A DNA stretch of 20,394 bases from a virus: positions 1 through 20,394 of the IMG/VR virus record IMGVR_UViG_3300031578_004030; one strand, written 5' to 3'. Both the position numbers and the translations under genes were made by a program. Every line of letters begins with the position of its first letter. Within the stretch, counting starts at the first letter, position 1. The notes beneath the pieces are model-generated. The model searched no databases, was not told the origin of the DNA, and worked only from the letters and a program-made list of their open reading frames with translations. Below, piece by piece: positions 3,652 to 18,354 of the stretch.

Positions 3652-4185
3652 TTACGATTGAGGCGGTTGAGCCGCTCCGGATGGAACAGATTCCGGTGAT
3701 CTAAACGGCTCCGGTAACGGCGTTCGTTTTGGGGTAATGCGTACCGGGATCGGTTCCCGCCTCGGGCAGTCTTCGCACACCTCGAATGGGATTTTTCCAT
3801 GCTCGTCGAGTTCGGATTCGGGGTCGCTACATATCGCAACCACCTGGATGCACTCACAAGCCTCCTTGACTACCGTGCTGTACAGTCGCATTCGGCACGA
3901 TTTCCATAGCGGTCGGAAGAGCCATGCATCTTCTGTATCGCGTTCGTACCCCTCAATAGGGCCCGGCGGCTCCCAGTCGTCGGGCCTTTTTTCGTATTGA
4001 ATGGACCCATCCGGTAGGAATTGCCCCTTCTGATAATCAGCCGGCAGGGTGTGTTGCATCATCGCGAGATGCAGTTCAGGCGGGCCCCCGGTGTACACGA
4101 CCCATCCGATTGATGCCAGCCCCTCGGGAGCGATAACATCAGGGATGCCACTTGGTGTCTGTTCTGGGCAGTCTTTACAAGCCAT
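3652..4185 (-). CDS. Cys-rich tandem paralogue A (177 aa, unknown function)
   Basis: Start chosen at ATG 4185: it shares a base with the upstream stop (TGATG) and has GGAGA about 8 nt upstream; an in-frame alternative at 4212 lacks this support. The protein begins MACKDCPEQ. It contains the motif shared with the next two genes (DG-I-Y-K, then WEPP, a GY-R turn, then DAW) and a Cys set C..CEC...C followed by C-x2-CP. The paired cysteines suggest metal binding; no family is recognised. The C-terminal ~35 residues are Pro-rich and probably flexible. It is the last gene of the leftward operon. A rightward terminator-like hairpin lies within its coding sequence. Confidence 0.7.
   Translation of the reverse strand: MACKDCPEQTPSGIPDVIAPEGLASIGWVVYTGGPPELHLAMMQHTLPADYQKGQFLPDGSIQYEKRPDDWEPPGPIEGYERDTEDAWLFRPLWKSCRMRLYSTVVKEACECIQVVAICSDPESELDEHGKIPFEVCEDCPRREPIPVRITPKRTPLPEPFRSPESVPSGAAQPPQS
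3960..3992 (+). terminator. Rightward terminator-like hairpin inside antisense gene
   Basis: On the plus strand 3960-3970 pairs with 3976-3986 (11 bp including two G-U pairs) around the 5-nt loop TCCCA, followed by six T residues at 3987-3992. It would end rightward transcripts that pass the metallopeptidase gene, about 370 nt beyond its stop. It also encodes the KRPDDWEPP segment of the leftward gene, so the structure may be a by-product of coding. Confidence 0.5.
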
Positions 4186-4475
4186 CAAGTCTTCTCCGGG
4201 CAACTCTGACACTGAGGTGGTTGAACTGTGCCGTGCAGGTCACAGTGATACGTGATTTTGGCAGCCCCGCATGCTGAATAGGTGATACTCTGTGTCCGGT
4301 GCCCACAGGCATCCAGGATTGGGAGGAACACCCATGCATCCGGTGACTTTAGGTTGTCGCTCTTCCGCTTGTAGCCAGCGGGCGCCAGGGGAGGTTCCCA
4401 TCCCCGCTTTGGGTAGGCAATCACGCCGTCTTTGAAGATTCGTGGGCGGGCGTGTGTCAGCGGTTGTTCTGGCAT
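4185..4475 (-). CDS. Cys-rich tandem paralogue B (96 aa, unknown function)
   Basis: Start chosen at ATG 4475, giving a 19-nt overlap with the upstream gene; a TTG at 4547 in the same frame would add 24 residues lying wholly inside that gene and is less likely. There is no strong Shine-Dalgarno, so translation is probably coupled. The protein is almost entirely the shared module: DGVIAYPKRGWEPP, GYKRKSDNLKSPDAW, then C-GHR, C, C-DLHG and C-x2-CPE. The C-x2-H-R / C / C-x2-HG / C-x2-C order resembles small zinc-ribbon-like proteins that I associate with Planctomycetota (inference). Metal binding is likely; role unknown. Compared with copies A and C it lacks extra terminal domains and may be the minimal unit. 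Confidence 0.68.
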   Translation of the reverse strand: MPEQPLTHARPRIFKDGVIAYPKRGWEPPLAPAGYKRKSDNLKSPDAWVFLPILDACGHRTQSITYSACGAAKITYHCDLHGTVQPPQCQSCPEKT

Positions 4476-5035
4476 GTGACACACTGGTCCAGTTCGATGT
4501 TCTTCGACTTGCCATTGAACGTGCAGGTCGGGATGACCCGCATGCAATCACAGCTTGGCCGTTTGATCCGCTTGAGTTCACAGTGTTTACACAGGGGTTC
4601 TTTTCGGACCAGAGTCCAAGCGTCCGGACTCTTCAAGTCATCCGATAGCCTGCGATAGCCCACGGGGACCGGCGGCGGCTCCCAGTCGACTTTCTGGTAG
4701 ATGATTGTGCCATCACCCAGAATCTTGGGATGCCCTGGAGAGGGCCTTGTGGGCTCAGGAAGGGGCATCCGGTCACCAACTGGATGGCCCACCGTGTTGA
4801 CTTGAAAGCTCGGTTGAGGGGCCTTCACTGGTTCTTGCTCCGTGCAGCCCTGGCAAGTCTTGCATGTGACCTGCCGTTTGCCGAACCACTTCGCGGGTTC
4901 TTTGATGGCTTGGGCATCTGTGACCGTTCGTGGCCTCGTGGGCGCCCGGCACCAGATTTGGACGCCATCCAGACTCTGCATGGGCCACCGACGCCCACAT
5001 GGTGGCAGATCAGCAATATGCTTCATGTCGGTCAT
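4457..5035 (-). CDS. Cys-rich tandem paralogue C (192 aa, unknown function)
   Basis: Start chosen at ATG 5035, with GGGG six bases upstream; it overlaps the upstream gene by 26 nt. An N-terminal third holds its own cysteine cluster (CKTCQGC). A Pro-rich linker follows (EPTRPSPGHP), then the shared module (DGTIIYQKVDWEPP, GYRRLSDDLKSPDAW) and the C-terminal set C-x2-C, CDC, C and C-x2-C. It resembles paralogue B most closely, sharing the stretch LKSPDAW exactly. Likely a metal-binding soluble protein; function not recognised. The gene is embedded in an overlapping leftward string with copies A and B. Confidence 0.7.
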   Translation of the reverse strand: MTDMKHIADLPPCGRRWPMQSLDGVQIWCRAPTRPRTVTDAQAIKEPAKWFGKRQVTCKTCQGCTEQEPVKAPQPSFQVNTVGHPVGDRMPLPEPTRPSPGHPKILGDGTIIYQKVDWEPPPVPVGYRRLSDDLKSPDAWTLVRKEPLCKHCELKRIKRPSCDCMRVIPTCTFNGKSKNIELDQCVTCQNNR

Positions 5036-6530
5036 TATACACCCCGTGGTAATCAAGCCATTTACTGTGTTCGTCGAGCCACTTGTCTCGCTTCTCTGAG
5101 TTGTCTCTCATTCCACCCTTCTTCTTTGTGTGAAGGTGGAATTCGTCCGATCCAAGTGCGACCCAGTCGGGCTCCGGGAGCGGCGACCAAATCCAACAGC
5201 CAAAACCGGTGCAGCTACCGACGCAACTTCCTTCGCTCGGCCAGCCTTGGCTCCACCAGATGACGGAGAAGTCAGGCCACTCGTCGTATTTACAATTACC
5301 TGGGATTGGCTCGCAGGCACCACCGATGAGGGACTCACAACGCCAACGGTTTCGCCGCTCGGAATAGGTCTGGCTGTAGCTCCTGTTGTTGACTTTGGCT
5401 GTCATTCCTCCAACGTACCAAGTACCATCGGGAGCGATGCGGACTCCTTTCCTATCAGATATGCTGCCATACCTGGAATTGATCCGGTACACATCAGCCG
5501 CCGGCAACACACCATCCGAAGTATCACTGCACTGGTTCAAAGTCCAGTCCCACTTATCGCCGAGCTTGTCCATCGTGGAAGGGTCCCACCAGTCATACCA
5601 TGGCCATTCAGGTAGGGCTTCGCTGTAGCACTCGGCGAAGATGTTGTGATCAGCGGGGTAGCGACCATACAAGCCCAACACTGCTGCACTGTTCTGTGCG
5701 GCGGCAGCGTTCGCACTTGCGATCAGGGGGAGGCCTTGGTTATACCAGAGGTTGAATGTCTCGACCCGCTCTTCTACCTTGTCCTGGTACTCTCTTGCTC
5801 TCTGCCCGTGTGTGCAGATTTGGAACTTGATGGACTGGCACTCAAGCGGCTCGGGGGTTACACCCTGGCATTGTGATTTCCATTGAGCAATGAGGGTGTC
5901 GACCTGTGCTACTTCGCTGTCAACAATGGCTTGGTAGTTTTCCATGCCTTTGCCGATGGCCGGCAACTTGTTGAAGAAGGTGAGGAGGTTGCCGATGTCC
6001 GCATGCGCCGAATCCCAAGTGTCACAGATGAGGTTGTACTTCGGATCGTTGTTGCCGCTCGGCGTGGGGTAGTAGGCTCCACGGTATTCTACCTCGTGGC
6101 AATCCATACCAATACAGATGGCACATGGGTCCTTCGAGTAGACCCCGGTGGATTTGCCCTCGGATTCCGCAGCGTTGACTGCTGTGTGACTGAAGATGCA
6201 GACCATCTGATCCTCCTCGTCCGGCTCCGTTTCGCAATCACACCAGGCATCATCCATCTGGTCATTGATCTCATCAATGATCGCTTGCTTCCAGAGCACG
6301 AGTTCCTCCAAGAAACTGATGTCCGGGCAAGTCTCTTTGAGCTTGTCCCGCATCTCCGTGACATCATTGACGGACCATAGGTGTGGGTCCGTAACTTCGT
6401 CGATCGGATCAATCGGCGGACAATTGCTGGCTCCCACAGGGGGACCCTGGAGAATCTCATTCACGTCCTGAATGAGCGAGTTCCAATCCTCGATAGAGAA
6501 CGGTTTGTCTGGGTCGTAGTATTCGGACAA
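5010..6530 (-). CDS. Large Cys/Trp-rich protein, possibly virion-associated (506 aa)
   Basis: The only start that fits is TTG 6530, preceded by GAGGAG at optimal spacing immediately after the exonuclease stop; the next ATG would remove the conserved-looking N terminus (FSIEDWNSLIQDVNEIL). The protein has about 21 cysteines, many tryptophans in the second half (WPWYDWWDPS; VIWWSQGW), a Cys/Gly cluster SCVGSCTGFGCW near residue 450, and a charged C-terminal tail. Residues ~185-225 look helical. No signal peptide or membrane segment is seen, and I recognise no family. The layout of a helical N terminus followed by Gly/Trp-rich repeats resembles tail-fibre or other structural proteins, but it lies in the replication operon, so that role is a guess. 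Cysteines may bind metal or form disulfides. Confidence 0.72.
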   Translation of the reverse strand: MSEYYDPDKPFSIEDWNSLIQDVNEILQGPPVGASNCPPIDPIDEVTDPHLWSVNDVTEMRDKLKETCPDISFLEELVLWKQAIIDEINDQMDDAWCDCETEPDEEDQMVCIFSHTAVNAAESEGKSTGVYSKDPCAICIGMDCHEVEYRGAYYPTPSGNNDPKYNLICDTWDSAHADIGNLLTFFNKLPAIGKGMENYQAIVDSEVAQVDTLIAQWKSQCQGVTPEPLECQSIKFQICTHGQRAREYQDKVEERVETFNLWYNQGLPLIASANAAAAQNSAAVLGLYGRYPADHNIFAECYSEALPEWPWYDWWDPSTMDKLGDKWDWTLNQCSDTSDGVLPAADVYRINSRYGSISDRKGVRIAPDGTWYVGGMTAKVNNRSYSQTYSERRNRWRCESLIGGACEPIPGNCKYDEWPDFSVIWWSQGWPSEGSCVGSCTGFGCWIWSPLPEPDWVALGSDEFHLHTKKKGGMRDNSEKRDKWLDEHSKWLDYHGVYNDRHEAYC

Positions 6531-6542
6531 AGTGTTCTCCTC
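6531..6542 (-). promoter_or_regulatory. Ribosome-binding site deciding a TTG start
   Basis: Leftward, the sequence reads GAGGAGAACACT directly before TTG at 6530. The strong Shine-Dalgarno and spacing support the rare start codon. Confidence 0.7.
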
Positions 6543-7160
6543 TTAGAACAAGTCGACATGGACTAATGCACGATACACTTCTGCCTCTGCCAAGGCGTCA
6601 GACAGGGCATCGTGTGGAGTCTCGTTGACGATCCCGAAATGTTTACAGAGATACTTGAGACCCACATAGTTGAACGGGGCGGGTTCGCCCGCGAAGGCTG
6701 CTTTATCCTTGAGACTCAAAGCGAAGGTCATACTGTCTCGTGGATGGAAGTGGAAGATGTGGTCGAACAACTTGGTGCCCAACCAGGCTTTGCCAAAGGA
6801 AGACTCGAAAGCCCAGTTGTGGGCCATTGGTGTGAGCTTCTTACCAACCGGTAGGTCGAGTGCCTCGAACCATTCCACCAGAAGATCGGCGACCTTCTCG
6901 TTGGAAGGTGCGTTGAGCATCAAGTCAGCCAGGTTGAGCCCGTGGATAACCAAGGCTTCCCTGTTGGCCCGCTCCGGATACTTCGGCGCGATGTTGTGAT
7001 AGAATGGCCGAAGCTCCTTGTTTGGGTGGAGATCAGCATCCAGAGGCACAACGCCAATCTGGATGATTTCGTGATAACCCGCCGTGTCGCCGGTTGTCTC
7101 AAAGTCGATGGCAACCATCAGATTACCATTGAGGTGGACCAGCCCATTGTATGTGCGCAC
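6543..7160 (-). CDS. DEDDh-family 3'-5' exonuclease (205 aa)
   Basis: Start chosen at GTG 7160: GAGGAG lies 7 nt upstream and overlaps the end of the kinase gene; the longer frame upstream is inside that gene. Motif ExoI is clear (VAIDFETTG; Asp19, Glu21). ExoII reads AHNWAFESSF, with Glu119 where the family usually has Asp. ExoIII is HDALSDA (His183, Asp188). This is the DnaQ-like fold of DNA polymerase epsilon subunits, RNase T and phage exonucleases, which remove 3'-terminal nucleotides using two metal ions. Length fits a single-domain enzyme. In an operon with primase-helicase and dNMP kinase it probably serves phage DNA replication or processing. No polymerase is in the window. Confidence 0.88.
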   Translation of the reverse strand: MRTYNGLVHLNGNLMVAIDFETTGDTAGYHEIIQIGVVPLDADLHPNKELRPFYHNIAPKYPERANREALVIHGLNLADLMLNAPSNEKVADLLVEWFEALDLPVGKKLTPMAHNWAFESSFGKAWLGTKLFDHIFHFHPRDSMTFALSLKDKAAFAGEPAPFNYVGLKYLCKHFGIVNETPHDALSDALAEAEVYRALVHVDLF

Positions 7161-7174
7161 AGTGTTACTCCTCG
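7161..7174 (-). promoter_or_regulatory. Ribosome-binding site deciding a GTG start
   Basis: Leftward sequence CGAGGAGTAACACT precedes GTG 7160 and contains the kinase stop codon TAA. The same ten bases, GGAGTAACAC, occur before the kinase ATG (7927-7936). Confidence 0.72.
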
Positions 7175-7926
7175 AACTTGAGACCGGCGGCTTTGTAGAC
7201 GGCCAGGACTTCCTTGTGACTTGGCATCCGTTGGACTGCCAGGGCTTCATTGATTTCTTGCTGGGACCGTTTGAGGGCATCCAAGCTGCCTGGCGCCCGG
7301 TAGATATTCAGTCCGGTAACTCGCGGTGGGGATGTCTTTATGATGTGCGCCGCATACCTGGCAGCCCATTGGCGAAGATTCTCGATGCCGCTACAAGTCA
7401 CAGGGGTCGGAAGATCACCAATCACGTTGTCCCAGTCGGTGTGGTAGATCAACGCCAAGTCGGCAACGGTCATCTTCGGGCCATACCCGTCACGGACGAT
7501 CTTGATCAAGTGGCCGCCGGTATCCTGGATGGCCTTTATCTCGTTCGGGAAGCGGACATCCGAGATCACGATCACGTCCAACCCGTGGTCTGTCTTCAAC
7601 AGGTAATCGACCCAAGTGAGATCATAGACCTGCTCGCGGACAGCGGGCGTCCCGAATTGAACCCAGACCTCTATAGGTGTCATATCGAGGGCGGGCAGCT
7701 TCACATCACGTTCATGCTCGTTGGCGGGGACGTTGTAGTAGGCTTCGTCTTGGACACCAGCCCAACCATAGAGATCGTGGGTGATCTCCTTCAGCTTTGA
7801 GGCGAAGCCCTTACGGCCCACCCTGAGCTTCGGTGCCATCTCCTGAAGGGTGTCGATGAGGGCGTTGGCGAAAGTGTCTTTTCCGGTACGGCTATAGTGG
7901 CCAAGACCAATGATGAGAGGATGCAT
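7165..7926 (-). CDS. Phage deoxynucleoside monophosphate kinase-like protein (253 aa)
   Basis: Start ATG 7926 has GGAG six bases upstream. The N terminus carries a P-loop of the phage dNMP kinase type (GHYSRTGKDTFA, with Asp after Lys). Further family signatures are VWVQFGTPAVREQ and DVRFPNE around residues 86-128. Family enzymes, typified by T4 gene 1, phosphorylate dNMPs to dNDPs with ATP to feed phage DNA synthesis. The C-terminal ~60 residues are helical and less recognisable. It is a soluble protein. Placement between the primase-helicase and the exonuclease supports a nucleotide-supply role. Related nucleoside or adenylate-type kinases are the alternative. Confidence 0.83.
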   Translation of the reverse strand: MHPLIIGLGHYSRTGKDTFANALIDTLQEMAPKLRVGRKGFASKLKEITHDLYGWAGVQDEAYYNVPANEHERDVKLPALDMTPIEVWVQFGTPAVREQVYDLTWVDYLLKTDHGLDVIVISDVRFPNEIKAIQDTGGHLIKIVRDGYGPKMTVADLALIYHTDWDNVIGDLPTPVTCSGIENLRQWAARYAAHIIKTSPPRVTGLNIYRAPGSLDALKRSQQEINEALAVQRMPSHKEVLAVYKAAGLKFEE

Positions 7927-7954: not shown

Positions 7955-10684
7955 CTAATCTTTGATGCGAAGTCGACCGTTGACACAGATGTACGGCGAT
8001 CCAGTTTCGTCCTCTACCGAAGTCCATGAGATATTGCCGACGAAACGTTTGTTGTCAGTGGAGGCCCCTACCGGTGTGTCCGAAGGCATCCCACGCGAGA
8101 CTTTGATCTTGCTCCACTGATACCGTTCCTCGGGGTCCAACCACTCAATGAACTTCTCGTAGAACTCGGCAAAGAGAATCTTCACGCCGGGGGCCGAGTG
8201 GCATTGATCCCGGACAAAACTCTCCAGTTGCGTGCGTTGCATATCCTCTGACTGCTGCTTTTTGATGGTGTCAACCACAGGCAGTCGTAAACGTCCTTGC
8301 ACTTTTGGAAGCTCCAAATTGTGCAACGTATGCATGAAGTGAGGCCCCTCGGCTTCAAGTGCCTTCATCAAGATGGACTTTGGTATTTCCTGGTCAGGTT
8401 GGAGATCGGGGACTTCGATGACGGTGATTCGTGTGTCGCCCGGGAAGACCGGGCAGTTCTTCTGGTCGTTTGCCATCATCATCATGTGTAACGTATTCGG
8501 CTGGGGGTAGGCGTCCGTTCGCATCCGGCGAATCCAGAGGGTCTTCGCCGTAGTCCATTCCTTCATTCTGGGATAGGCATACGGGCTACGAGCGATGTCG
8601 GACTCTTCGATGTAGGCGACCACTGCATTGGCCAGTTCCCCATTGAAGCCACTCTGGTTTGTTAGCGACCTCTCAGCGGAGACGACACCACCGGTGGTCA
8701 GGGAAGCCAAGGCTTCGTGGAAGATCGACTTGCCACAGTCTTGGTTGCCAAAGAAGAAGAGGAACGGAAGCGGCTCGAATGGATCACGGAAGCAACAGGC
8801 AATCCATGCAAGGCCGTACTCTGCGCCGGTGCGGATGTTGGCCTCTTGTGCCCACTTGAGACCGTTGATTTCATGGTCCAGGTCACGAAAACAGTGGTGT
8901 AGGAGCAGGTCCCAATGGGGGTGATGTGGGTGTTCATCACTTGCCAGGGTTGCTGTCTCGTGGGCGTACTGCGGGCAGTTGTAATTCCACTGGCGGTTAC
9001 CGGGGTACTCATCACTGAACGGGTGATTGATCAACCTCCATGGTCTGTCGATGCATCTCCCGAGGATCACTTCTGCTTCACCTTTGGGGTGGCCATGCTG
9101 CTGGAGCCACATCTTGCAGTCGGACGCCGTGCATCGTCCCCAGTTCTCGCCGGTATCCTCAATGAACCAACCCGCTGTGTCTCCAGTGGAGGTGTTCAGC
9201 CGTCGAAGACGATCATCATACTCGGCCCCACTAAGGTCGTCCTCGTTCTTTTCCGTTTTCACGTCAAACACTCTTTCCCAGTAGCCACCACGAACCTTCG
9301 CCCAACCTTCGCCCGGTTTCGGGTCTTCCTTCTCCTGACTCATCCGCATGACTAGGCGGCCGTCTTTGCTTGGGCGAAGGACCGCCTCGCGAAAAAGGAA
9401 CTTCTCGTCAAGGGCAATGTCAGGGCTGCCCAACGTCCGGGCAACCTCAATGGCGTACTTGGCTTTGTCAAACTGGTAGCCCTTGTTGTCGGCCAGTTCG
9501 GCACCACCCTTGGCGCGAGACGCCGTGACGAAGTCGGGGTCGTGGTTGAACAGGCAGGTCGTCCATCCCTCACCATCCTGCTGCCAGGTGGCGTCCTCAT
9601 TGATCCCCTGACCGAAGCGGTAGACTTTCCAGGCTCCGTTCCGCAGGGGGAACGCGAAGCAGTTGGGTTCCGATGGGTTCGAGCCACGGGAGTTGGTGAT
9701 GAAGAAACCCTTCAGACCGAGCTTGACACGGGCATCCTCATCCAGGGTCAGCATCTGAAAGGCACAGGTGTGGGTCTGGAGCAAGTGGTGATCCTGAATC
9801 CACACCGTGGAGAAGCCACTCTGGGCCAACCAGTCGATGGTGTCCTTGTGGGTCTCGTCCAAGTTGATGACCGGCCTCGCAGACGCCAGTTGATCGAACG
9901 GGTCTTGCTCGATATCATCGAGGCCGTTTACACGCACCTTGGTCCGACGCCGGCTGACCACTTCGACGTGGTCCTTCCAGTTGGCAGGGAGATCATCGAC
10001 CGTGAGAATCTTCTCAGCCGGCTTCAGGAGGGCGAGACCTTTATTCTCCTGGGTCAACTTGCGGTGCCAGAACCACATGATCGATCCGCAGCAGTCGATC
10101 TGCCGGGAGAAGTCGAAGCCGGTCTCCTGAGTCATCATCCCCAGGACGCAGCGGGCAAGGGCGGCATGCTCCGTGTGATTCGCCGTGGGAATGCTGTCCA
10201 GGAGGACATAGAGGTGGATTCCCTTGCCTCCGGTGGATCGCCGCACTTCGGTGTAGGGCAGGTCTTCGGCCGCTCTCTGGACCTCTGCGAGCTTCTCATC
10301 GGTGATCCCAACACCTCTGGCATGGCCCGTAATGGCGTCGAAGTCGAAGCCTACCCACAGGCTGACTCTGTTCCGCCAATGCCAACCCGTGGTCCCGATC
10401 CCTTCAGCGTGAAGCTCCAGGGGCCAGGACAGCTTGTAGTCCTTGAACTCGGGCTCATCATAGGCGTTCTTCGGGATTCGCAGGTTCCAATACTGATACG
10501 TGCCGGTGTCCCAGGTGGCCCGCTTCCCGGCCACCGGCTCGCTGTTGCCAGCCGCCACGTTGATCTGGGTCTCCAGGTCTGTGCCGTGCTCCAGAAAGCG
10601 GTCAAGAAGGTCTTGGCCAGGATGTTCGCCTCGGCGCCCCTTCAGGAAGTCCACGAGGGCTTTGGTAATGAACTTCGTTGGCAT
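7955..10684 (-). CDS. Primase-helicase: AEP-like primase plus SF3 helicase (909 aa)
   Basis: Start ATG 10684 has AAGGAG six bases upstream and is the first gene of the leftward operon. Residues ~100-210 show primase-like motifs: VGFDFDAITGH (Asp114, Asp116 for metal) and GGKGIHLYV (His157), as in archaeo-eukaryotic-type primases and LigD polymerase domains. Residues 640-760 form a superfamily 3 helicase: Walker A GNQDCGKS (646-653), Walker B VVAYIEESD (Glu693, Glu694), and motif C MMMMANDQKN with Asn739 and an arginine at 752 as possible finger. The architecture resembles poxvirus D5 and phage P4 alpha-type proteins, which unwind DNA and prime synthesis. The ~400-residue linker has scattered cysteines. 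Primase activity is less certain than helicase. Confidence 0.87.
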   Translation of the reverse strand: MPTKFITKALVDFLKGRRGEHPGQDLLDRFLEHGTDLETQINVAAGNSEPVAGKRATWDTGTYQYWNLRIPKNAYDEPEFKDYKLSWPLELHAEGIGTTGWHWRNRVSLWVGFDFDAITGHARGVGITDEKLAEVQRAAEDLPYTEVRRSTGGKGIHLYVLLDSIPTANHTEHAALARCVLGMMTQETGFDFSRQIDCCGSIMWFWHRKLTQENKGLALLKPAEKILTVDDLPANWKDHVEVVSRRRTKVRVNGLDDIEQDPFDQLASARPVINLDETHKDTIDWLAQSGFSTVWIQDHHLLQTHTCAFQMLTLDEDARVKLGLKGFFITNSRGSNPSEPNCFAFPLRNGAWKVYRFGQGINEDATWQQDGEGWTTCLFNHDPDFVTASRAKGGAELADNKGYQFDKAKYAIEVARTLGSPDIALDEKFLFREAVLRPSKDGRLVMRMSQEKEDPKPGEGWAKVRGGYWERVFDVKTEKNEDDLSGAEYDDRLRRLNTSTGDTAGWFIEDTGENWGRCTASDCKMWLQQHGHPKGEAEVILGRCIDRPWRLINHPFSDEYPGNRQWNYNCPQYAHETATLASDEHPHHPHWDLLLHHCFRDLDHEINGLKWAQEANIRTGAEYGLAWIACCFRDPFEPLPFLFFFGNQDCGKSIFHEALASLTTGGVVSAERSLTNQSGFNGELANAVVAYIEESDIARSPYAYPRMKEWTTAKTLWIRRMRTDAYPQPNTLHMMMMANDQKNCPVFPGDTRITVIEVPDLQPDQEIPKSILMKALEAEGPHFMHTLHNLELPKVQGRLRLPVVDTIKKQQSEDMQRTQLESFVRDQCHSAPGVKILFAEFYEKFIEWLDPEERYQWSKIKVSRGMPSDTPVGASTDNKRFVGNISWTSVEDETGSPYICVNGRLRIKD

Positions 10685-10708
10685 GGATTCTCCTTCGCGA
10701 AAATTGAC

Positions 10709-10749
10709 GTACTATTCATACAGTACAAACGCGAGCCACAAAATGCGCC
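10709..10749 (-). repeat. Left arm of outward-facing inverted repeat (promoter/operator)
   Basis: Core 10714-10749 matches the reverse complement of 10908-10943 at 35 of 36 positions, and the match extends to 10709 with a one-base gap. Read leftward it contains GCGCATTTTGTGG, then TTTGTACTGTATGAAT. GTACT-N8-AGTAC (10709-10726) is a small dyad. A weak sigma70-like reading is TTGTGG with TATGAA, spacing 15. It ends 24-30 nt before the primase-helicase ATG. Confidence 0.8.
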
Positions 10750-10907
10750 TCGGAAAAGATTCTTAGGTTACTTCCGGAAATGGACAGAAGTTTTGCCATA
10801 ACCCCAATGCATATCATGGTTTAGAGGCAGGAAGTATCGAAGTATCCATTTCGGATGGCCCCATTAAATTCCTCACAATCAGAATTCCGAGAAATTTATT
10901 TTGTGGG

Positions 10908-10947
10908 GGCGCATTTTGTGGCTCTCGTTTGTACTGTATGAATGTAC
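10908..10947 (+). repeat. Right arm of outward-facing inverted repeat (promoter/operator)
   Basis: Rightward copy of the element, differing from the left arm at one base in the 36-bp core. Candidate hexamers are TTGTGG (10916-10921) and TATGAA (10937-10942), with a short 15-nt spacer, so a host sigma70 promoter is only tentative. The dyad is GTAC-N9-GTAC (10931-10947). The ParB-like ATG follows 31 nt later. Confidence 0.8.
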
Positions 10948-10977
10948 GCGGTATGAAAGAGCCCACATGACAGCGAG

Positions 10978-11853
10978 ATGGATGACGAACTTCGCAGACT
11001 ACCAATCGACCAACTCGTGAAGCCCTGGGTTCTACTGAGGCCGGTGGACCGGCATTCAGTCGAGTTCGCGGAGATGAAGGACTCGATCGCGGCGAAAGGA
11101 TTTCTTGCCTCGATCGCGGCCAGACCGTGTAAACGCCGTCCCGGCACATTCGAGATCATCGACGGCATGTGGAGGTGGTCATGCGCCAAGGAAATCGGGT
11201 TGGCCACCATACCCACGATCGTCAAGCACGGCATCACGGATGAAGATGTCCTGAGCCTGCAAATCCAGGCGAATGCGATTCGTCCGGAGACCAAGCCGTG
11301 TGATTTCGCACGGCAGTTGAAGAGGATTCAGAAGGCGCATCCTGGGATCACCATGTCGCAGGTCGCTGTGATGATCTCGAAGTGTCCTGCTTGGGTGCGC
11401 CAACAACTGGGTTTGCTGAATCTGAACCCTGCCCAACAGAAGATGGTCGATCGTGGGGAAATCTGTCTCCAGAACGCTTACATGCTGTCAAAGATTCCAT
11501 CCCATCTTCGCAAGCACCATGTTGAACAAGCGAAGACGGCACCAGCAAAAGCGTTCCATGCTCTCGCAGCTAGTGTGATCAAACAGTACATGGAGGCCGT
11601 CCGGCAAGGAAAGCTGGATGCCTTCTTCACGGACGACTTTGAACCACAAGTCTATCTGCGATCTCTCAAGGAAGTCCAGGACGAATTCCGGACTCAAACG
11701 GATGGTCCTCTACTTGTCGCCGCCGAGAACTGCAAAACGCCAGTAGATGGATGGATGGCGGCCCTTCGATGGGCATTGCACCTCGACCGCCAAAGTGTGG
11801 AAGAACAGGAACACGCTGCGCGGGCACGAGCCCGTCAGAAGTGGGAATCCTGA
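10978..11853 (+). CDS. ParB-like DNA-binding protein (291 aa)
   Basis: Start ATG 10978 is the first codon compatible with the full domain, although the ribosome-binding site is poor. Residues ~5-85 form a ParB N-terminal domain: LRRLPIDQLVKPW, a MKDSIAAKGF helix, and IDGMWRWSCAKEIG, matching the DGxRRxxAAxxxG box of the family, where ParB proteins bind and hydrolyse CTP. A helix-turn-helix follows at ~124-147 (ITMSQVAVMISKCPAWVRQQL) and then LNLNPAQQKMVDRGEI. The box is altered (MWRW for HRRW). The C-terminal ~120 residues are not recognised. No ParA ATPase is in the window. It could be a phage partition protein, a transcription regulator, or a ParB-fold nuclease; the inverted repeat upstream is a natural candidate target. 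Confidence 0.82.
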   Translation: MDDELRRLPIDQLVKPWVLLRPVDRHSVEFAEMKDSIAAKGFLASIAARPCKRRPGTFEIIDGMWRWSCAKEIGLATIPTIVKHGITDEDVLSLQIQANAIRPETKPCDFARQLKRIQKAHPGITMSQVAVMISKCPAWVRQQLGLLNLNPAQQKMVDRGEICLQNAYMLSKIPSHLRKHHVEQAKTAPAKAFHALAASVIKQYMEAVRQGKLDAFFTDDFEPQVYLRSLKEVQDEFRTQTDGPLLVAAENCKTPVDGWMAALRWALHLDRQSVEEQEHAARARARQKWES

Positions 11854-11906
11854 GTTCACACTCGTCTCTTTTCCAATTCTATTCTCTTGTTTCAAGGTGT
11901 GTAAGT

Positions 11907-12641
11907 ATGTCGAAAGAAACTGCGCTCGTCCCTGTTGATTTCACCCAGCTTCCCGCTACCCAACGTGGTGACGACAAAGCATACGGTGAACTGTCCCAGG
12001 GCAACGAGTTCCTTGGCCGCCTCCAGCTTTTCTCCAAGGGTGGTGCGATCAACAAGGGCCTCATCAAGCCCGGCCACTGGGGAATCCCTGAGAGTGATGA
12101 AGACATCATCGATCTCGGTGTGAGCATCGATTGCTTGGTGCTCGCTCGACGGCCCAAGGCCCTCGATATGAGCGACAAGGACGCCATCATCGGTAACTAC
12201 GACATGGAGTCGGATGAGTTCAAACGGATCGCCGATGCATCAGCGGGCCAGGACTCCGGTTGCATGTATGGCCCGAGCTTCCTCGTCCTGGAGCGGTCGT
12301 CCGGCCGCCTCCTGGAGTATTTCTGTGGCACCAAGAGCACCCGCTCCGAAGCCAAAAAAATCTACCCCTACCTGCCGCTGACCGCACAGGACATCGTCGC
12401 CAGGAAGCTGGCCGCCGACACGGAGCCGCACGCCCCGCTGCCCTTCACCATGAAGACCAAGCTGGTCGAACGGAAGCATTTCTCCTGGCACGTCCCGGTG
12501 GTCCTGAAGTGCTCGACGCCATTCAAGGCCTTGCCCGAGATGGCCGTGATTGTCAAGGAAATCGAGCGGTTCATCAATCCTCCAGCGGACGGCGTTGAGA
12601 AGGTTCCGGAGAAGGAAGCCGGCAAGCGCCGAGCCCGCTGA
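11907..12641 (+). CDS. Conserved-looking phage protein of unknown function (244 aa)
   Basis: Start ATG 11907 (MSKETALVPVDF) has AAGG about 9 nt upstream; a longer in-frame opening at 11751 lies inside the ParB-like gene and is rejected. Notable segments are FLGRLQLFSKGGAINKG, GHWGIPESDEDIIDLG, LARRPKALDMS, DSGCMYGPSFLV and FTMKTKLVERKHFSWHVPVV. The mixed alpha/beta composition without signal or membrane segments suggests a soluble protein, and the C terminus is charged (EKEAGKRRAR). The sequence looks like a family I have seen uncharacterised in phage genomes, but I cannot name it. Position between ParB-like and helicase genes hints at a DNA-related role, for example nucleic-acid binding; this is inference. 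A terminator follows. Confidence 0.75.
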   Translation: MSKETALVPVDFTQLPATQRGDDKAYGELSQGNEFLGRLQLFSKGGAINKGLIKPGHWGIPESDEDIIDLGVSIDCLVLARRPKALDMSDKDAIIGNYDMESDEFKRIADASAGQDSGCMYGPSFLVLERSSGRLLEYFCGTKSTRSEAKKIYPYLPLTAQDIVARKLAADTEPHAPLPFTMKTKLVERKHFSWHVPVVLKCSTPFKALPEMAVIVKEIERFINPPADGVEKVPEKEAGKRRAR

Positions 12642-12668
12642 GCAACTTTTTGCCCTTTTTCTGAAGTT

Positions 12669-12690
12669 CCCCGACAAAACGGGGCGTTTC
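12669..12690 (+). terminator. Intrinsic terminator after the unknown phage gene
   Basis: CCCCG (12669-12673) pairs with CGGGG (12680-12684) around ACAAAA, followed by CGTTTCTT. The stem is short but GC-rich. It begins 28 nt after the stop and separates that gene from the structured RNA region. Confidence 0.65.
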
Positions 12691-12726
12691 TTGTCTAAGT
12701 CTAGATAGAGGGCAACACAAATGCAT

Positions 12727-12864
12727 CGACCTGCTGGATTAGTTTCTAGGGCGAGTCCTGTCCAAGGGAACCCAGCGTAGGTGTGCCTTGGTCTCAATCT
12801 GTTTGTATTCCCTTGTGCGACGGCAAAAGGACTCACAGATGAAGGGGACGCTGGGAGCAGGTCG
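12727..12864 (+). ncRNA. Putative pseudoknotted structured RNA, class unknown
   Basis: Four exact complementary pairs occupy this 138-nt non-coding stretch. P1: 12727-12735 with 12856-12864 (9 bp, CGACCTGCT/AGCAGGTCG). P2: 12753-12759 with 12828-12834 (7 bp). P3: 12763-12770 with 12808-12815 (8 bp, CAAGGGAA/TTCCCTTG). P4: 12771-12778 with 12848-12855 (8 bp, CCCAGCGT/ACGCTGGG). P2 and P3 are nested inside P1; P4 starts directly after the P3 5' strand and closes directly before the P1 3' strand, crossing P2 and P3, so it makes a pseudoknot. Small hairpins may fill the joins (12779-12788; 12816-12825). TTTT follows P1. Strand is inferred from the flanking genes. It may be a free RNA or a leader of the small peptide gene 26 nt downstream. 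I matched no known riboswitch or ribozyme. Confidence 0.65.
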
Positions 12865-12889
12865 TTTTCATTCAACCTGAGGTAATCCG

Positions 12890-13021
12890 ATGAAGATCAT
12901 TTCGTTTGTCTTGAAGTCCAAGTGGACTTACGTGATCGCCCTGGCTTTGGGTGGGCTCATCAGTGGAAGCACTTACTCCGATCGGATCGTGCAAGCGATC
13001 CAGACATTGATCGGCCCGTAA
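12890..13021 (+). CDS. Small single-span membrane peptide (43 aa)
   Basis: ATG 12890 follows GAGGT at good spacing (GAGGTAATCCG). The peptide begins MKIISFVLKSK, then has a hydrophobic stretch WTYVIALALGGLISG of about 15-18 residues, and ends DRIVQAIQTLIGP. This pattern fits one inner-membrane helix with a basic N-terminal flank. It is too short for family assignment. It lies between the structured RNA and a strong terminator, so RNA and peptide may form one transcription unit. Possible roles include a membrane-acting phage peptide, a toxin-like peptide or a holin-like peptide; none is shown. Confidence 0.65.
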   Translation: MKIISFVLKSKWTYVIALALGGLISGSTYSDRIVQAIQTLIGP

Positions 13022-13053
13022 GTTCAATCCTAGTCAACGCGAGCATCCGACTG

Positions 13054-13093
13054 GGCCGGCAGTGGCTCGACGCCACTGTCGGCCTTTTTCTTT
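13054..13093 (+). terminator. Strong intrinsic terminator
   Basis: A 13-bp stem (13054-13066 with 13072-13084, one G-U) around TCGAC is followed by TTTTTCTTT. It ends the RNA/small-peptide unit 33 nt after the stop codon. Confidence 0.92.
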
Positions 13094-13141
13094 GGAGGCC
13101 TGCTCAGGGGCTTAGTACCTGTGACTGACGAGTGAACAACC

Positions 13142-13666
13142 ATGAATCCAAGCGCAATCCTAATCCAACAACCAGCAGTCGATTGGTCGACGTTTCTTGA
13201 TCTCGCTGACCAGGCACTCGGGTACAGCCCGAGCGCGGCGTCGGACGCGAGTGGTATCCAATTGCACGATGCTGAGAAGTTCATGTCCTGCCTGGCAGCC
13301 ATGAAGGACCAGAATGCGCCGGTCGGTTTACCACCACATCTGATGACGCATGTGTCCTTCAGCATACTGGTTGGAGCCAACAATCGAGACATGCAGGATA
13401 TCCTGGAATACTGTTCCGGGATGCCGTTCGTGATCGCCAACACGATCGTGCGTGGTGTCCAGATCGCCGTGGTCACTGGCACCCTGGCTCAGTGGCGGGT
13501 CGCCGTTATCTCCGGTTGCCAGTTTTCTGTTGATTCGATGGTTCGCGCCCTCTTCAACCATATTCTCAGTCTCTTTGAGGCTGTCAACCTGAGTGTTTGG
13601 AAAGACTGCGAACGGAAGGAGTCTGGGGCTACCTTCCTACTGGAAGACCACAGGGGTCGCCTATGA
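13142..13666 (+). CDS. Hypothetical phage protein (174 aa)
   Basis: ATG 13142 has only a weak purine-rich site upstream (GACGAGTGAAC). The protein is soluble-looking, with several amphipathic helices: an N-terminal half MNPSAILIQQ...LADQALGYSPS, then HLMTHVSFSILVGANN, MPFVIANTIVRGVQIAVVTG and FNHILSLFEAVNLS. No catalytic motif is recognised. The stop overlaps the next ATG (ATGA, 13663-13666), which indicates translational coupling to the DUF2061 membrane protein and a possible shared role. Confidence 0.7.
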   Translation: MNPSAILIQQPAVDWSTFLDLADQALGYSPSAASDASGIQLHDAEKFMSCLAAMKDQNAPVGLPPHLMTHVSFSILVGANNRDMQDILEYCSGMPFVIANTIVRGVQIAVVTGTLAQWRVAVISGCQFSVDSMVRALFNHILSLFEAVNLSVWKDCERKESGATFLLEDHRGRL

Positions 13667-13884
13667 AAAACACCAGCCGAGCACAGAGGTCCCTGATGAA
13701 GGGGTTGAGTTGGGAGAGCTTCTCCTACTTCCTCACGATACTCATCACCTACTGGTATCTCCACAGCTTCAGTACCAGCGTTAAGCTCACCAGCACCCTC
13801 TTCATCATCAAGATCATCTTCTTCTATTTCCACGAACGCATCTGGCACCAGATCAAGTGGGGAAAGATCACTGGCAAGGAATAA
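13663..13884 (+). CDS. DUF2061-family small membrane protein (73 aa)
   Basis: Start at ATG 13663, overlapping the upstream stop; an in-frame ATG at 13597 lies inside the upstream gene. The protein matches the DUF2061 pattern: basic N terminus with RSLMKGLSWE, a first hydrophobic span FLTILITYWYL, a second span LFIIKIIFFYF, and the family-typical ending HERIWHQIKWG. Members are short predicted inner-membrane proteins of unknown function, so full length is normal here. They are mainly known from cellular genomes; presence in a phage-like operon is unusual. Confidence 0.85.
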   Translation: MKNTSRAQRSLMKGLSWESFSYFLTILITYWYLHSFSTSVKLTSTLFIIKIIFFYFHERIWHQIKWGKITGKE

Positions 13885-13886
13885 CC

Positions 13887-16800
13887 ATGTCTCAAGTTCT
13901 TGACATCAAACTCATCCACGAAACCCAAAGCGGGAGTCTGGTTCGGAGCCCTGCTAAGATCGAGATTGCTGACGGTCGCATCTTCTTCCTGAAGTCCGCC
14001 TTTGCTTTGAAGGACGAGATCAAATCAATGGCTGGCTCCCGATGGCACGGCTACGATGACGAGAACCCCCACAAAATTTGGTCCGTCACGGATTGCCCAC
14101 GGAACCACTTCCAACTCGGCTACCTCATGGGTGAGGATGTCTACGAGTGGTTCGAGCGTGATCTGATTCGTCACGAGTACCGCCAATACCAACTGAAGGG
14201 CGTCGATACTGATCCGATGCCCCACCAGTTCGATTTGGCGGACTCCGGCCTCACTTACCACTACCAAATCTGGGGTGCCGAGATGGGCACGGGCAAAGGT
14301 GGCCTACCTAGTACGAAGGTTGCTACTCCAACTGGCTGGACCACTTTGGGTGAAATTCAGGTGGGTGACGAAGTCATTAACCCTGAAGGTGGGACAACCA
14401 AGGTTAAAGGCGTTTACCACCGGGGCCGGATGGAGATGTTTCGAGTAACGTTTTCGGATAACTCATCCACTGTGTGTAGTCGGGACCATTTGTGGAACGT
14501 GCGTTCGGCGTGCCGGAAGCATCGTGGGATGTCTTGCGAAGTGTTGGAGTTGCAGGAGATTCTTTCGCGTGGGCTCAAGGGAGTGGCGAACGGCAATGCT
14601 AAACACTACATCCCGATGGTGAACTCGGTTGAATATCATAAGGCCCCGTTGCCGGTACATCCGTACCTCTTAGGGTACATCCTTGGTAATGGTGGATTGA
14701 GCGGGTATACCAATATCCTCTCTATTCCGGACACCGAGACCGTTGAACGTCTTAATTCGATGATGTTGACCCCTCTCAAGCAAAAGAAGAACTCACAGTA
14801 CGACTACATTATCAAGGACGATGGGGTCAATCGCTTCATTGAGGAAGCTGGCCTAAGGGGTCTAAGATCACACGAAAAGCATCTTACTACTGAATACCTG
14901 TTTAGTGCAGTCGAGAATCGGATTGCGATTCTCCAAGGATTGTGTGACTCCGATGGCCATGCAGTTCAGACTTCGGGAGTCGAGTATTCAACCACCTCAC
15001 CTGACCTATGCAGCAGCTTTGTCTCACTGGTGCAATCCCTTGGTGGAACATGCCATGTTAGTGAAAGCCGGCCTACCTATACCTACAAAGGTGAGAAACG
15101 GGTTGGACGCTTGGCCTATCGAATCAACGCTTCGTTCCCGTCCACAATTGTCCCTTTTTGGTTGAGTCGAAAGGCTTCACAGTACACGGTGCCTACAAAG
15201 TATGAGCCCACCCGAGCCATTGTGAAAGTGGAATCAATCGGTGAGGAAGAGTGCATCTGTATCGCTGTCGAGGCAGCCAATCAGCTTTATGTGACTGATG
15301 ACTTTATCGTCACCCACAATACTCTGGCGGCCCAGATGGTGATCGAGCACTCTGGTGTCGACTGGTGGTATTGGGTTGGCCCAGCCAGGTCGCTGCCCAA
15401 CATGAAACGAGAGTTTCGACTCTGGGGCTTCGATGAATCAAAGATTCGTATCGATTTCATGTCTTACGAGAAACTCAAACGAGTTGTGGACGAGTGGTCA
15501 CCGGATGGCCCGTTGCCGAGAGGCTTGATCTGTGATGAGTCCAGCCGCTGCAAGACATACAGCAGCCAACGATCGGTAGCCACCCAACTCTTGGCGGATC
15601 GTATCCGGGCGAAGCATCGCTTCGATGGTTACATCATCGAGATGTCGGGAACCCCGAGTCCGAAGAGGCCAACCGACTGGTGGAGCCAATGCGAGATTGC
15701 CTGGCCCGGCTTCCTGCGGGAAGGCAGCGTGAAGGCGTTGGAACAGCGGCTGGCCTTCATGGTCCAGAAAGAGTTTGACTCGGGCACATTCTGGAAAGCC
15801 TCCGGCTGGCGAGACGACGAACGCAAGTGTGCCGTTTGTGGTGAGTTTGAAGAGCACCCGTGCCACACGATGGACAACTTCATGGGGGAGATGGAGGAAT
15901 CGGATGAAGAGTTCCACAAGTTCGAGCCCTCGAAAAATGAAGTCGGCTTCATGTACGAGCGTCTCAAAGGGCTGGTGGTCATCAAGCACAAGAAGGACTG
16001 CCTCTCACTGCCCGACAAGCGTTATCGCCGAGTCATCTGCAAACCGAAGGCGTCTGTTCTTCGCGTTGCCAAAGCTCTGGTTGATGCTGCTGAGAATGCC
16101 GTCACCGGCATGACAATGCTGAGGGAACTCAGCGACGGTTTCCAGTACCGTGAAGAGCCTGATGGCAAGATTCCCTGCAACCATTGCAAGGATGCCTGTG
16201 GTGAAGTCGACCAGTGGTTTATTCCGGGCGAAGAGAATCGCACGTTCTCCAACATCGACATGCTCGAAAAAGAATTGGTGGCCCGCTTGGAGAAGCGGAG
16301 AGTCAAGTGTCCGAAGTGCAAGGGCACGGGCGAAGTCATCAAGATGAAGCGGTATGCACGCGAGGTGCCATGTCCCAAGGAGGGGGCTCTGCGAGACCTG
16401 CTCGAAGAAAACGAAGAGACCGGCCGCCTGGTGATCTTTGCCGGGTTCACCGGAAGCGTTGATCGTTGCTGTAACATCTGCCGCAAAGAAGGCTGGTCGG
16501 TTGTCCGCTGTGACGGACGTGGCTACCAGGTGACTCTGGCGGATGGATCAACGGTCACCGGTGCTGAAGCTCTCGACTACTGGGCTGACTTGGAGAACAA
16601 CCCCCGGGTTGCTTTCGTGGCCCACCCGGAGTCCGGTGGTATGTCACTTACGCTGGTAGAGGCCAGGATGGCAGTCTACTGGTCCAATAGCTTCAAACCT
16701 GAGTATCGCACTCAGTCTGAGGATCGTATCCACCGTAAGGGGATGGATGAGAACCTCGGGTGTATGATTGTTGATCTGATCCACCTGCCTACCGACGACC

Positions 16801-16925
16801 GTGCTCTGACAATCATCCGGGAGAACAGGAAGCTCGAACTGATGACGATGGGTGAGGTTTTCCCAGACTTTAACCCTGATGAGGAACCTGTAGATGAAAG
16901 CGCGATGGGGGGCGCCCAGCCATGA
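13887..16925 (+). CDS. SNF2/SF2-type helicase interrupted by an intein (1012 aa precursor)
   Basis: Start ATG 13887 follows AAGGA at 6 nt, three bases after the DUF2061 stop; an ATG at 13857 lies inside that gene. The extein is a superfamily 2 helicase: Walker A MGTGK (133-137) joined after splicing to TLAAQ (479 on), motif II DESS (550-553), motif III MSGTPS, motif V GGMSLT, and motif VI QSEDRIHRKG (943-952). Removing residues 138-478 leaves about 671 residues. Two cysteine clusters look like zinc ribbons: C648-x2-C651 with C659, and C764-x2-C767 with C808-x2-C811. Family members use ATP to translocate on or remodel DNA; in phages they act in replication, recombination or repair. The next gene starts inside its stop codon. 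Confidence 0.9.
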   Translation: MSQVLDIKLIHETQSGSLVRSPAKIEIADGRIFFLKSAFALKDEIKSMAGSRWHGYDDENPHKIWSVTDCPRNHFQLGYLMGEDVYEWFERDLIRHEYRQYQLKGVDTDPMPHQFDLADSGLTYHYQIWGAEMGTGKGGLPSTKVATPTGWTTLGEIQVGDEVINPEGGTTKVKGVYHRGRMEMFRVTFSDNSSTVCSRDHLWNVRSACRKHRGMSCEVLELQEILSRGLKGVANGNAKHYIPMVNSVEYHKAPLPVHPYLLGYILGNGGLSGYTNILSIPDTETVERLNSMMLTPLKQKKNSQYDYIIKDDGVNRFIEEAGLRGLRSHEKHLTTEYLFSAVENRIAILQGLCDSDGHAVQTSGVEYSTTSPDLCSSFVSLVQSLGGTCHVSESRPTYTYKGEKRVGRLAYRINASFPSTIVPFWLSRKASQYTVPTKYEPTRAIVKVESIGEEECICIAVEAANQLYVTDDFIVTHNTLAAQMVIEHSGVDWWYWVGPARSLPNMKREFRLWGFDESKIRIDFMSYEKLKRVVDEWSPDGPLPRGLICDESSRCKTYSSQRSVATQLLADRIRAKHRFDGYIIEMSGTPSPKRPTDWWSQCEIAWPGFLREGSVKALEQRLAFMVQKEFDSGTFWKASGWRDDERKCAVCGEFEEHPCHTMDNFMGEMEESDEEFHKFEPSKNEVGFMYERLKGLVVIKHKKDCLSLPDKRYRRVICKPKASVLRVAKALVDAAENAVTGMTMLRELSDGFQYREEPDGKIPCNHCKDACGEVDQWFIPGEENRTFSNIDMLEKELVARLEKRRVKCPKCKGTGEVIKMKRYAREVPCPKEGALRDLLEENEETGRLVIFAGFTGSVDRCCNICRKEGWSVVRCDGRGYQVTLADGSTVTGAEALDYWADLENNPRVAFVAHPESGGMSLTLVEARMAVYWSNSFKPEYRTQSEDRIHRKGMDENLGCMIVDLIHLPTDDRALTIIRENRKLELMTMGEVFPDFNPDEEPVDESAMGGAQP
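14298..15320 (+). mobile_element. Class 3-type intein with LAGLIDADG endonuclease domain (about 341 aa)
   Basis: The insert splits the helicase P-loop between Lys137 and Thr479. It begins Gly-Gly-Leu-Pro, so it lacks the usual Cys or Ser at position 1; block A continues ATPTGWTTLGEIQVGDEV. Block B ends in RDHLW, with Trp203 two residues after His201. Block F is CICIAV with Cys458 at its fourth position. Block G is IVTHN, with Thr476, His477 and Asn478, followed by Thr+1. Trp/Cys/Thr at these places is the signature of class 3 inteins, which use the block F cysteine as first nucleophile. Two LAGLIDADG motifs are visible: LLGYILGNG (261-269) and LQGLCDSDG (349-357). The first has Asn268 where a catalytic acid is expected. 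Codon use looks more relaxed than in the extein (TTA, CTA, AGA). Confidence 0.9.
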
Positions 16926-17224
16926 AGTTTACTGCCACGGTCACCCAAAGGTTACTGAGACCTCTGGGTACGCGAGAGGCATGTGAGAGCACGCTGCTGA
17001 GGGTGTTTCAGGAGGCGTTCTGGCCAGCGATGCCTTTGGCGAATCGAGAACAGAGCATTCTTGTCGAGGTGCCCGAGATTTGTACCATCGAGATCGATGT
17101 TGATCTTGACTTGGTGCAACGGGACGCTGAAGTGGTCATGTACATGCTCCACGAAGCGATGGACGTTCTCCTCGATCCGGAATACAACTCTGACATTGAA
17201 GTGGTTATCAACAACGAACTGTGA
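16922..17224 (+). CDS. Hypothetical protein (100 aa)
   Basis: ATG 16922 overlaps the helicase stop (ATGA), with a G-rich purine run upstream, so it is likely coupled to the helicase. The protein is acidic overall, with TREACESTLLRVFQEAFWP suggesting a helix and IEIDVDLDLV suggesting a strand. There are no cysteine pairs, signal or membrane segment, and I recognise no family. It is probably a small soluble phage protein, possibly a helicase partner because of the coupling (inference). Confidence 0.68.
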   Translation: MKFTATVTQRLLRPLGTREACESTLLRVFQEAFWPAMPLANREQSILVEVPEICTIEIDVDLDLVQRDAEVVMYMLHEAMDVLLDPEYNSDIEVVINNEL

Positions 17225-17234
17225 GGTCTCAACG

Positions 17235-18278
17235 ATGATGCTGAGAATGATTACTATCCTTTCACTGCTGCTCTTGGTAGTGAGCCCGTGCTTTGCGGAA
17301 CCTGCCAAACGCCTACAAGCGAATACCGTTGTGCTAACTGATGGTTACGGCCACGGCTCCGGTGTCCTGTTCTCCCGTGACAGGGAGACCTTCATCTGGA
17401 CGGCGGGTCACGTCGCTGACATTTGGATGAATTCCGATGGGACCTACGATCCCATCCCGGTCGTCCAAGGTGGCAGACTAGGTGCAGCCGAAGTGCTCCG
17501 CGTGGGTGACTATGAAGCCGGCGTCGATGTTGCCCTTCTCCGGGTGACTGAGGGCGACTTCAAGGGTGATGCCGAATTCTACCGAGGCTTCAACGATGTC
17601 AAGGTCGGCCAGAAGGTGATCCACTGCGGTACACCTCTGGACAAGGATTGGAACGAACGTCTGATTGCTTACGGCCGCTTTGCTTACGTAGATCGCCTAG
17701 TCGAGGGTCGCCCGCTTCTGGAGCCCCGCCGGATCGACCAGGTCGATATCACTGCATACCCTGGCTGTTCAGGCGGGCCTGTTGTTGATGAAGAGACCGG
17801 GGGTATTGTAGGTTTGCTGGTGATGGGAAGTTCCCCACGATTGACGATCATTGAACCGACCCGGCACATCTATAAGTGGGCGAAAGAGCACGACTGCCTT
17901 TGGGCGTTTGATCGAATGGTGGATATGCCAGGGACACCTGTTGCATGGCCGGGTGATCGATTCCTTCGCCAAGTCCGTGATCGTTACTGCCCTTCAGACG
18001 GGGGCTGGGGCACGCTACCGCCCTCACCGGAACCGGAGCCCGAGCCGAGTCTGGAGGAGCAGATCGAAGCCATCCTTGGTGACCTTCTGGAGAAGCTCTT
18101 GCCCAATCTGCCTGAGTACCCTGTCGAGCCTACCCAGCCGGTCGAGCCTGTTGAGCCCAAGCCGACGCCCGCGCCGGAACCGGTTGAACCACCCGCTGGC
18201 AATCCTGAAGGGGATGTGATCATCATCGATATTCCATCCCCGGACGACTACGAGTTCCTGCCTTACATGGCAGCCTAG
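17235..18278 (+). CDS. Exported trypsin-like serine protease with Pro/Glu-rich tail (347 aa)
   Basis: Start ATG 17235 has TGAGGT about 7 nt upstream; an in-frame opening at 17061 lies in the upstream gene. Residues 1-21 are a classic signal peptide (basic start, hydrophobic core ITILSLLLLVV, then SPCFA before Glu22). The catalytic triad of a chymotrypsin-fold protease is visible: His59 (TAGHVAD), Asp98 (GVDVALL) and Ser179 (YPGCSGGPV). The fold ends near residue 225. The C-terminal part is rich in Pro and Glu with repeated PVEP units and an amphipathic EEQIEAILGDLLEKLL stretch. It should act outside the cytoplasm. Substrate unknown; cellular HtrA/S1-like enzymes are the nearest analogy, but no PDZ domain is seen. 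Confidence 0.87.
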   Translation: MMLRMITILSLLLLVVSPCFAEPAKRLQANTVVLTDGYGHGSGVLFSRDRETFIWTAGHVADIWMNSDGTYDPIPVVQGGRLGAAEVLRVGDYEAGVDVALLRVTEGDFKGDAEFYRGFNDVKVGQKVIHCGTPLDKDWNERLIAYGRFAYVDRLVEGRPLLEPRRIDQVDITAYPGCSGGPVVDEETGGIVGLLVMGSSPRLTIIEPTRHIYKWAKEHDCLWAFDRMVDMPGTPVAWPGDRFLRQVRDRYCPSDGGWGTLPPSPEPEPEPSLEEQIEAILGDLLEKLLPNLPEYPVEPTQPVEPVEPKPTPAPEPVEPPAGNPEGDVIIIDIPSPDDYEFLPYMAA

Positions 18279-18354
18279 TCTCTCTGTCTCTCTTCAAACA
18301 GCAACCAGGCAGCCTGTAGGCCAACTACGAGCTACCATCATCTGAGGATACATC

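Follow-up and report, generated by a model that had tools for sequence, protein, structure and literature searches.

The divergent primase/helicase and ParB/helicase operons of an uncultured phage are separated by an outward-facing inverted repeat, and we infer that its two arms are probably one phage-specific promoter present twice, back to back, which would start both operons together. The DNA that was analyzed (hereafter the window) is an entire IMG/VR record of 20,394 bases, itself a fragment, so that a genome-wide scan was feasible in relatives only. We observed the repeat and its conservation, a third copy of the element in long genomes, the agreement of the copies within each genome, a relative in which the gene order is flipped, and a sigma70-family gene in every long genome.

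An inverted repeat between two divergent operons

The arms of the window repeat have cores at positions 10714-10749 and 10908-10943, face outward, and are reverse complementary at 35 of 36 positions. A spacer of 158 nt (10750-10907) separates them. This geometry agrees with the sequence-only reading of this DNA, which had claimed a 36-bp core on opposite strands with one mismatch and a 158-nt center. When one gap is allowed, the arms extend to 10708-10749 and 10908-10948 (42 columns, 95%), and the repeat attains a score of 71, against 20 or less in 25 shuffles. The left arm, on the minus strand, is the putative promoter element of the primase operon and reads leftward, with TTTGTACTGTATGAAT at 10714-10729; the right arm, on the plus strand, is the corresponding candidate for the ParB-like operon and reads rightward, with TTTGTACTGTATGAAT at 10928-10943. 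The pattern of the element is GGCGCATTTTGTGGCTC-N2-GTTTGTACTGTATGAAT. There are exactly two occurrences of a 16-nt core in the window, whereas dinucleotide shuffles average 0.12 at up to three mismatches. The start codons lie 29 nt from the 36-nt core on the primase side (ATG at 10684) and 34 nt from it on the ParB-like side (ATG at 10978); the claimed values of 30-35 nt are thus nearly matched.

The leftward operon, on the minus strand, is headed by a primase/helicase (7955-10684; DUF5906, PHROG DNA primase) with an AGGAG ribosome-binding site before its ATG. The remainder of this operon (3652-7926) comprises a dNMP kinase (7165-7926), an exonuclease (6543-7280), a gene at 5010-6530, and three smaller genes. 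Three neighboring small genes at 3652-5056, encoding 186, 120, and 199 aa, match one another's homologues from relatives and have the appearance of tandem paralogues of unassigned function. The rightward operon, on the plus strand, is headed by a ParB-like protein (10978-11853) possessing ParB_N and HTH_ParB domains, and continues (11871-19665) with conserved proteins of 257 and 174 aa, a helicase with an apparent intein, and trypsin-like and exonuclease-like proteins. By PHROG and Pfam matches, the helicase frame (13857-16925) has a LAGLIDADG-type segment, the apparent intein, between its helicase halves. The window primase has no relative among 50,697 deposited phage records, the window ParB finds only distant matches among cultured phages, and no relatives were found in bacterial genomes.

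The spacer has a G+C content of 44%, AT-rich relative to its surroundings, and carries GGTTACTT at about 10766-10773. Motifs like GGTTACTT are present in the spacers of the window and of three relatives (L003, L004, and L005), the window copy being reversed relative to the genes; this sharing is marginal against shuffles (k=18, best 13 mismatches, null minimum 14). A search of Rfam returned no match. A scan for the plain sigma70 consensus found no sites at the window arms, which is expected of a non-host promoter class, yet is no proof of one.

Conserved position without conserved sequence

Three IMG/VR contigs whose primases are 64-68% identical to that of the window possess the same architecture and an arm pair at the same junction. 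The sequences of these arms are different ones, and the pairs extend over 75 nt at 85%, 29 nt at 97%, and 50 nt at 80%. Between genomes, for the window and the four relatives closest to it, arm comparisons gave values at or near the shuffle level, the sequences being unrelated or faintly alike, whereas agreement of the arms within each genome is strong. Thus, the place of the element and its pairing are conserved and its sequence is not. A search of the 100-kb relative G002 with its arm core returned the two arms and chance-level matches only, one of which, with two mismatches, lies near the contig end without a clear gene. The gene-poor contig ends of G002 contain short tandem repeats of GGTTACTTA and CCACCCA (14589-14640 and about 100550-100800, L016). 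In G003 (L005:4995-7636) and in L122 (3856-6714) the primase is split across two overlapping frames, which may reflect a frameshift, an intron-like insert, or an assembly error.

Extending the survey through conserved neighbors (64 alignments) added more than 100 further loci. A significant outward repeat is present at 53 of 56 distinct divergent homologous junctions and, after clustering of similar sequences, in 48 of 51 clusters; among the 56 junctions tested, L114, L096, and L113 lack a significant repeat, L113 having a weak one. L144 is a second locus at which the primase and the 257-aa gene share a strand, approximately 4.7 kb apart, and ParB has no match in the interval or ahead of the two genes.

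The adjoining gene and the DNA-binding domains of its product favor a mechanism akin to that of KorB-type ParB proteins, with the ParB-like protein bound to the arms and both operons under its control. We judge this very improbable. At L086 and L120 the primase and its neighbor across the junction have no ParB gene between them, and the repeats score 69 and 74, against 20 or less when shuffled; this comparison covers the junction only, and either genome may have a ParB gene at another place. The partnership with the ParB-like protein suggested by the sequence-only reading is therefore not needed for the repeat to persist at the junction. A ParB-family gene adjoining the repeat is a likeness to KorB/ParB operators, and the persistence of the repeat without ParB at the junction is a difference from them.

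The elements of the family share a layout in which an A-rich block is followed, about 10 nt further on, by a core some 20 nt long. The A-rich block of the larger clade reads TGGAAAA or CTGAAAA, among others, and much of this clade has a TATAGG-like core end. The length of the core and this frequent TATAGG-like end would suit promoters of a phage single-subunit (T7-type) RNA polymerase, a possibility that we regard as improbable: the separate upstream block is conserved too, and three copies is a low number for such a system. PF00940 had no match in G002 and G004, but the search was silent in control genomes as well and so carries no weight as to the presence of such a polymerase.

The spacer in the larger clade is often just 3-10 nt, such that the two elements nearly touch. 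These short spacers, found in many relatives, weigh against the repeat being part of a replication origin or of a ParB centromere between replication genes, which its location beside the primase/helicase and ParB genes and its AT-rich character relative to the surroundings might suggest. No iterons were found, a solitary element is present at the terminase operon, and G004 has one at each of two separate genes (see below), leaving an origin or centromere very doubtful. An invertible DNA switch, which was also considered, fits poorly, since in many relatives there is almost no segment between the arms to invert, and single or direct copies occur elsewhere.

Arm identity spans 50-76 nt in some relatives. 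Arms of this length exceed what a promoter needs, which suggests that some homogenization has been added on top. They also bear on the earlier claim that similarity continues from the arms into the center. In the window this continuation is weak, a permissive gapped alignment of the two halves covering about 107 columns and raising the score merely from 74 to 85; the long arms of several relatives lend it some support.

A third copy at the terminase operon

Genomes read whole comprised G002, G004, and ten long contigs, and a terminase-small-like gene was identified in 11 of these long genomes. In ten of the 11, a copy of the arm sequence proper to that genome lies directly upstream of this gene, 24-100 kb from the arms; the eleventh, G002, has a weak third copy only (p=0.007). 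Eight of the ten copies score above the best match of the reversed-motif control, and that of G012, which ties with the control maximum, is in register before the terminase-small-like gene; the G004 copy is described in the next section. One arm of G009 spans a boundary between sequence pieces and is for that reason absent from the scan, but the arm itself is visible. In nine of the ten genomes the arms that the third copy resembles most are those of that genome, and in the tenth they rank second. The element is, in sum, a low-copy motif upstream of the first genes of unlinked operons, with three copies in ten of these 11 long genomes and two within the window fragment; the phage of the window probably has a third copy too, beyond the fragment.

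These copies bear on how the arms came to be alike. Local gene conversion, or recombination and segment flipping, could make two arms alike without regulatory meaning, and the 50-76-nt arms of some genomes fit such a process. As the whole explanation it has very little to recommend it, given that the sequence peculiar to a genome recurs in copies 24-100 kb away and that G004 has two direct copies about 6 kb apart. The distant third copies rule out gene conversion as the sole cause; it may add to the pattern of long arms. A purely local duplication, as the sequence-only reading had proposed, likewise does not hold for the long relatives, whose terminase/head operon carries a copy as well. Instead of the scatter over random coding sites against which that reading had warned, the long genomes show the element at these operon starts only.

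A relative with an inverted primase operon

In G004 (106 kb) the whole primase operon block is inverted, and the primase and ParB genes are consequently read in the same direction, about 6 kb apart from element to element. The junction of this genome has no inverted repeat, yet the element is retained ahead of both primase and ParB. The two copies, GGCGTAAAA...GCCTATAGTATG...GTATCGA, are identical at 33 of 42 positions and lie in direct orientation. A third copy precedes a gene encoding 193 aa at 93 kb. The product has weak likeness to terminase-small (PHROG 3678), and its G002 homologue matches a terminase-small family at E 0.047; the gene lies upstream of, and on the same strand as, those for the large terminase and the portal, and heads the terminase-portal operon.

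Because G004 keeps its elements without an inverted repeat, the element appears to work singly at each gene, and the inverted layout of other genomes to follow from their divergent gene order. We therefore take the elements to act one by one as promoters of a single class. We also considered that the inverted repeat was born from an inversion of the primase operon; this was dropped, since the divergent order is the usual one and G004 the exception. What stands of the sequence-only reading is one promoter-type element in two copies, through which the replication and ParB-like operons would be controlled together; the inverted layout itself, as G004 indicates, is not essential.

A sigma70-family protein as candidate reader

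A match to sigma70 region 2 was found in both of the first long relatives, and one orthologous sigma70-family gene is present in all 12 long genomes, on the ParB strand and 12-19 kb downstream of ParB. Of 18 further records, some of them partial, 15 also have an ortholog, and the records with one include G003, which belongs to the window's own subgroup. The 20-kb window fragment is without a sigma gene, the corresponding position lying beyond its end. A profile of the family protein matches sigma factors of known structure, the best being sigma factor 1l0o (E 5e-15). The protein is fast-evolving, with a mean pairwise distance of 0.64, compared to 0.29-0.49 for four other shared proteins. Across the 12 genomes, promoter distances and sigma distances are correlated (Mantel r=0.60, p=0.012); the partial correlation under control for ancestry is 0.07 (p=0.35). 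Since the correlation vanishes once ancestry is controlled, the link to the sigma factor rests on function and co-occurrence and is not singled out statistically. The orthologous sigma factor is the likely reader of the elements. If the ParB-side operon is read as far as the sigma gene, its promoter would feed that gene and close a positive loop. A few genomes contain a second sigma-like gene. Additional ECF-like sigma genes are located at 20462-21226 of G004 (L032:462-1226, minus strand) and at 8077-8865 of G002 (L036, minus strand), their products being 25% identical to each other.

Three co-varying copies per genome would suit any trans-acting DNA-binding factor, and partial dyads are present in some arms (ACTATT-ATG-AATAGT in L005 and CTAGT-N7-ACTAG in L003). 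Both observations count toward the arms being operators, at host-sigma70 promoters, of a phage repressor or activator that is not a sigma factor, with the three copies forming a co-evolving regulon. We consider this unlikely. The block layout and the position right before start codons are those of a promoter rather than of an add-on site, the plain sigma70 scan found no promoter at the window arms, and a non-exhaustive search identified no single candidate for a regulator conserved in the way that the sigma factor is.

Discussion

We propose that the elements are promoters of one phage-specific class. The end of the core would lie close to where transcription probably starts, with 0-100 nt left to the start codon, and a trans-acting specificity factor would read every copy of the element in a genome. 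The most likely such factor is the family's own sigma70-family protein, operating with the host core RNA polymerase. In the long genomes of the same phage family, the third copy would start the terminase-small/head operon. Drift in the specificity of the factor would force all copies along, with the result that copies in one genome would match one another and those of different genomes would not. A broader account, in which replication and head assembly depend on about three promoters and a vertically inherited sigma factor has changed specificity repeatedly, generating dozens of natural, mutually distinct sigma-promoter pairs, with the divergent promoters visible as a near-palindrome, is one to which we give slightly less than even credence.

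If these proposals are correct, a short repeat in one fragment marks the master switch used by an uncultured family of phages, and the approximately 50 junctions, which have kept position and copy agreement through changes of promoter sequence, represent a natural data set on the joint change of sigma and promoter specificity. The family would also be a possible source of sigma-promoter pairs without cross-talk. A repeat of this kind in a single genome is recognizable as functional only through comparison of architecture between relatives, not of sequence.

The closest known case is that of phages phiEco32 and 7-11, with promoters that depend on a phage sigma factor. Two features of that case which sequence can reveal, a sigma70-family gene and a low-copy motif ahead of unlinked operons, are found here as well. 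Phage 7-11 has eight late promoters with the motif GTAAtg-16-aCTA, which are read by the sigma factor SaPh711_gp47; their start sites were mapped and sigma activity was shown (PMC8948821). The likeness lies in a phage-encoded sigma70-family protein and in a low-copy bipartite motif common to unlinked operons (PMC8948821). The present family differs in having about three promoters rather than eight and in unrelated promoter sequences, and here both the promoters and the role of the sigma factor are deduced from sequence. Unlike the arrangement reported here, no inverted promoter pair is described for 7-11 in the portion of that report used here (PMC8948821). As described in the same paper, the middle and late promoters of phiEco32, six in number, have a single-element motif, tAATGTAtA, and are read by gp36, and promoter positions are conserved between phiEco32 and 7-11 where the sequences are not (PMC8948821). 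Position without sequence conservation is likewise seen here, over about 50 genomes. The sigma genes of 7-11 and phiEco32 are taken there to have been acquired independently (PMC8948821), whereas the sigma factor described here is orthologous across the family. Low-copy promoters of a phage sigma factor have also been predicted in a single cultured phage by pairwise comparison of intergenic regions (PMC4331800). The logic of discovery is the same, and in both cases copies are located at divergent intergenic regions and structural clusters; the set described here is family-wide and co-varying, as opposed to that of one phage. What is new, relative to these systems, is the extent: the sigma factor is orthologous, each genome has about three promoters, two of them in a conserved back-to-back pair, and turnover has been repeated over some 50 junctions.
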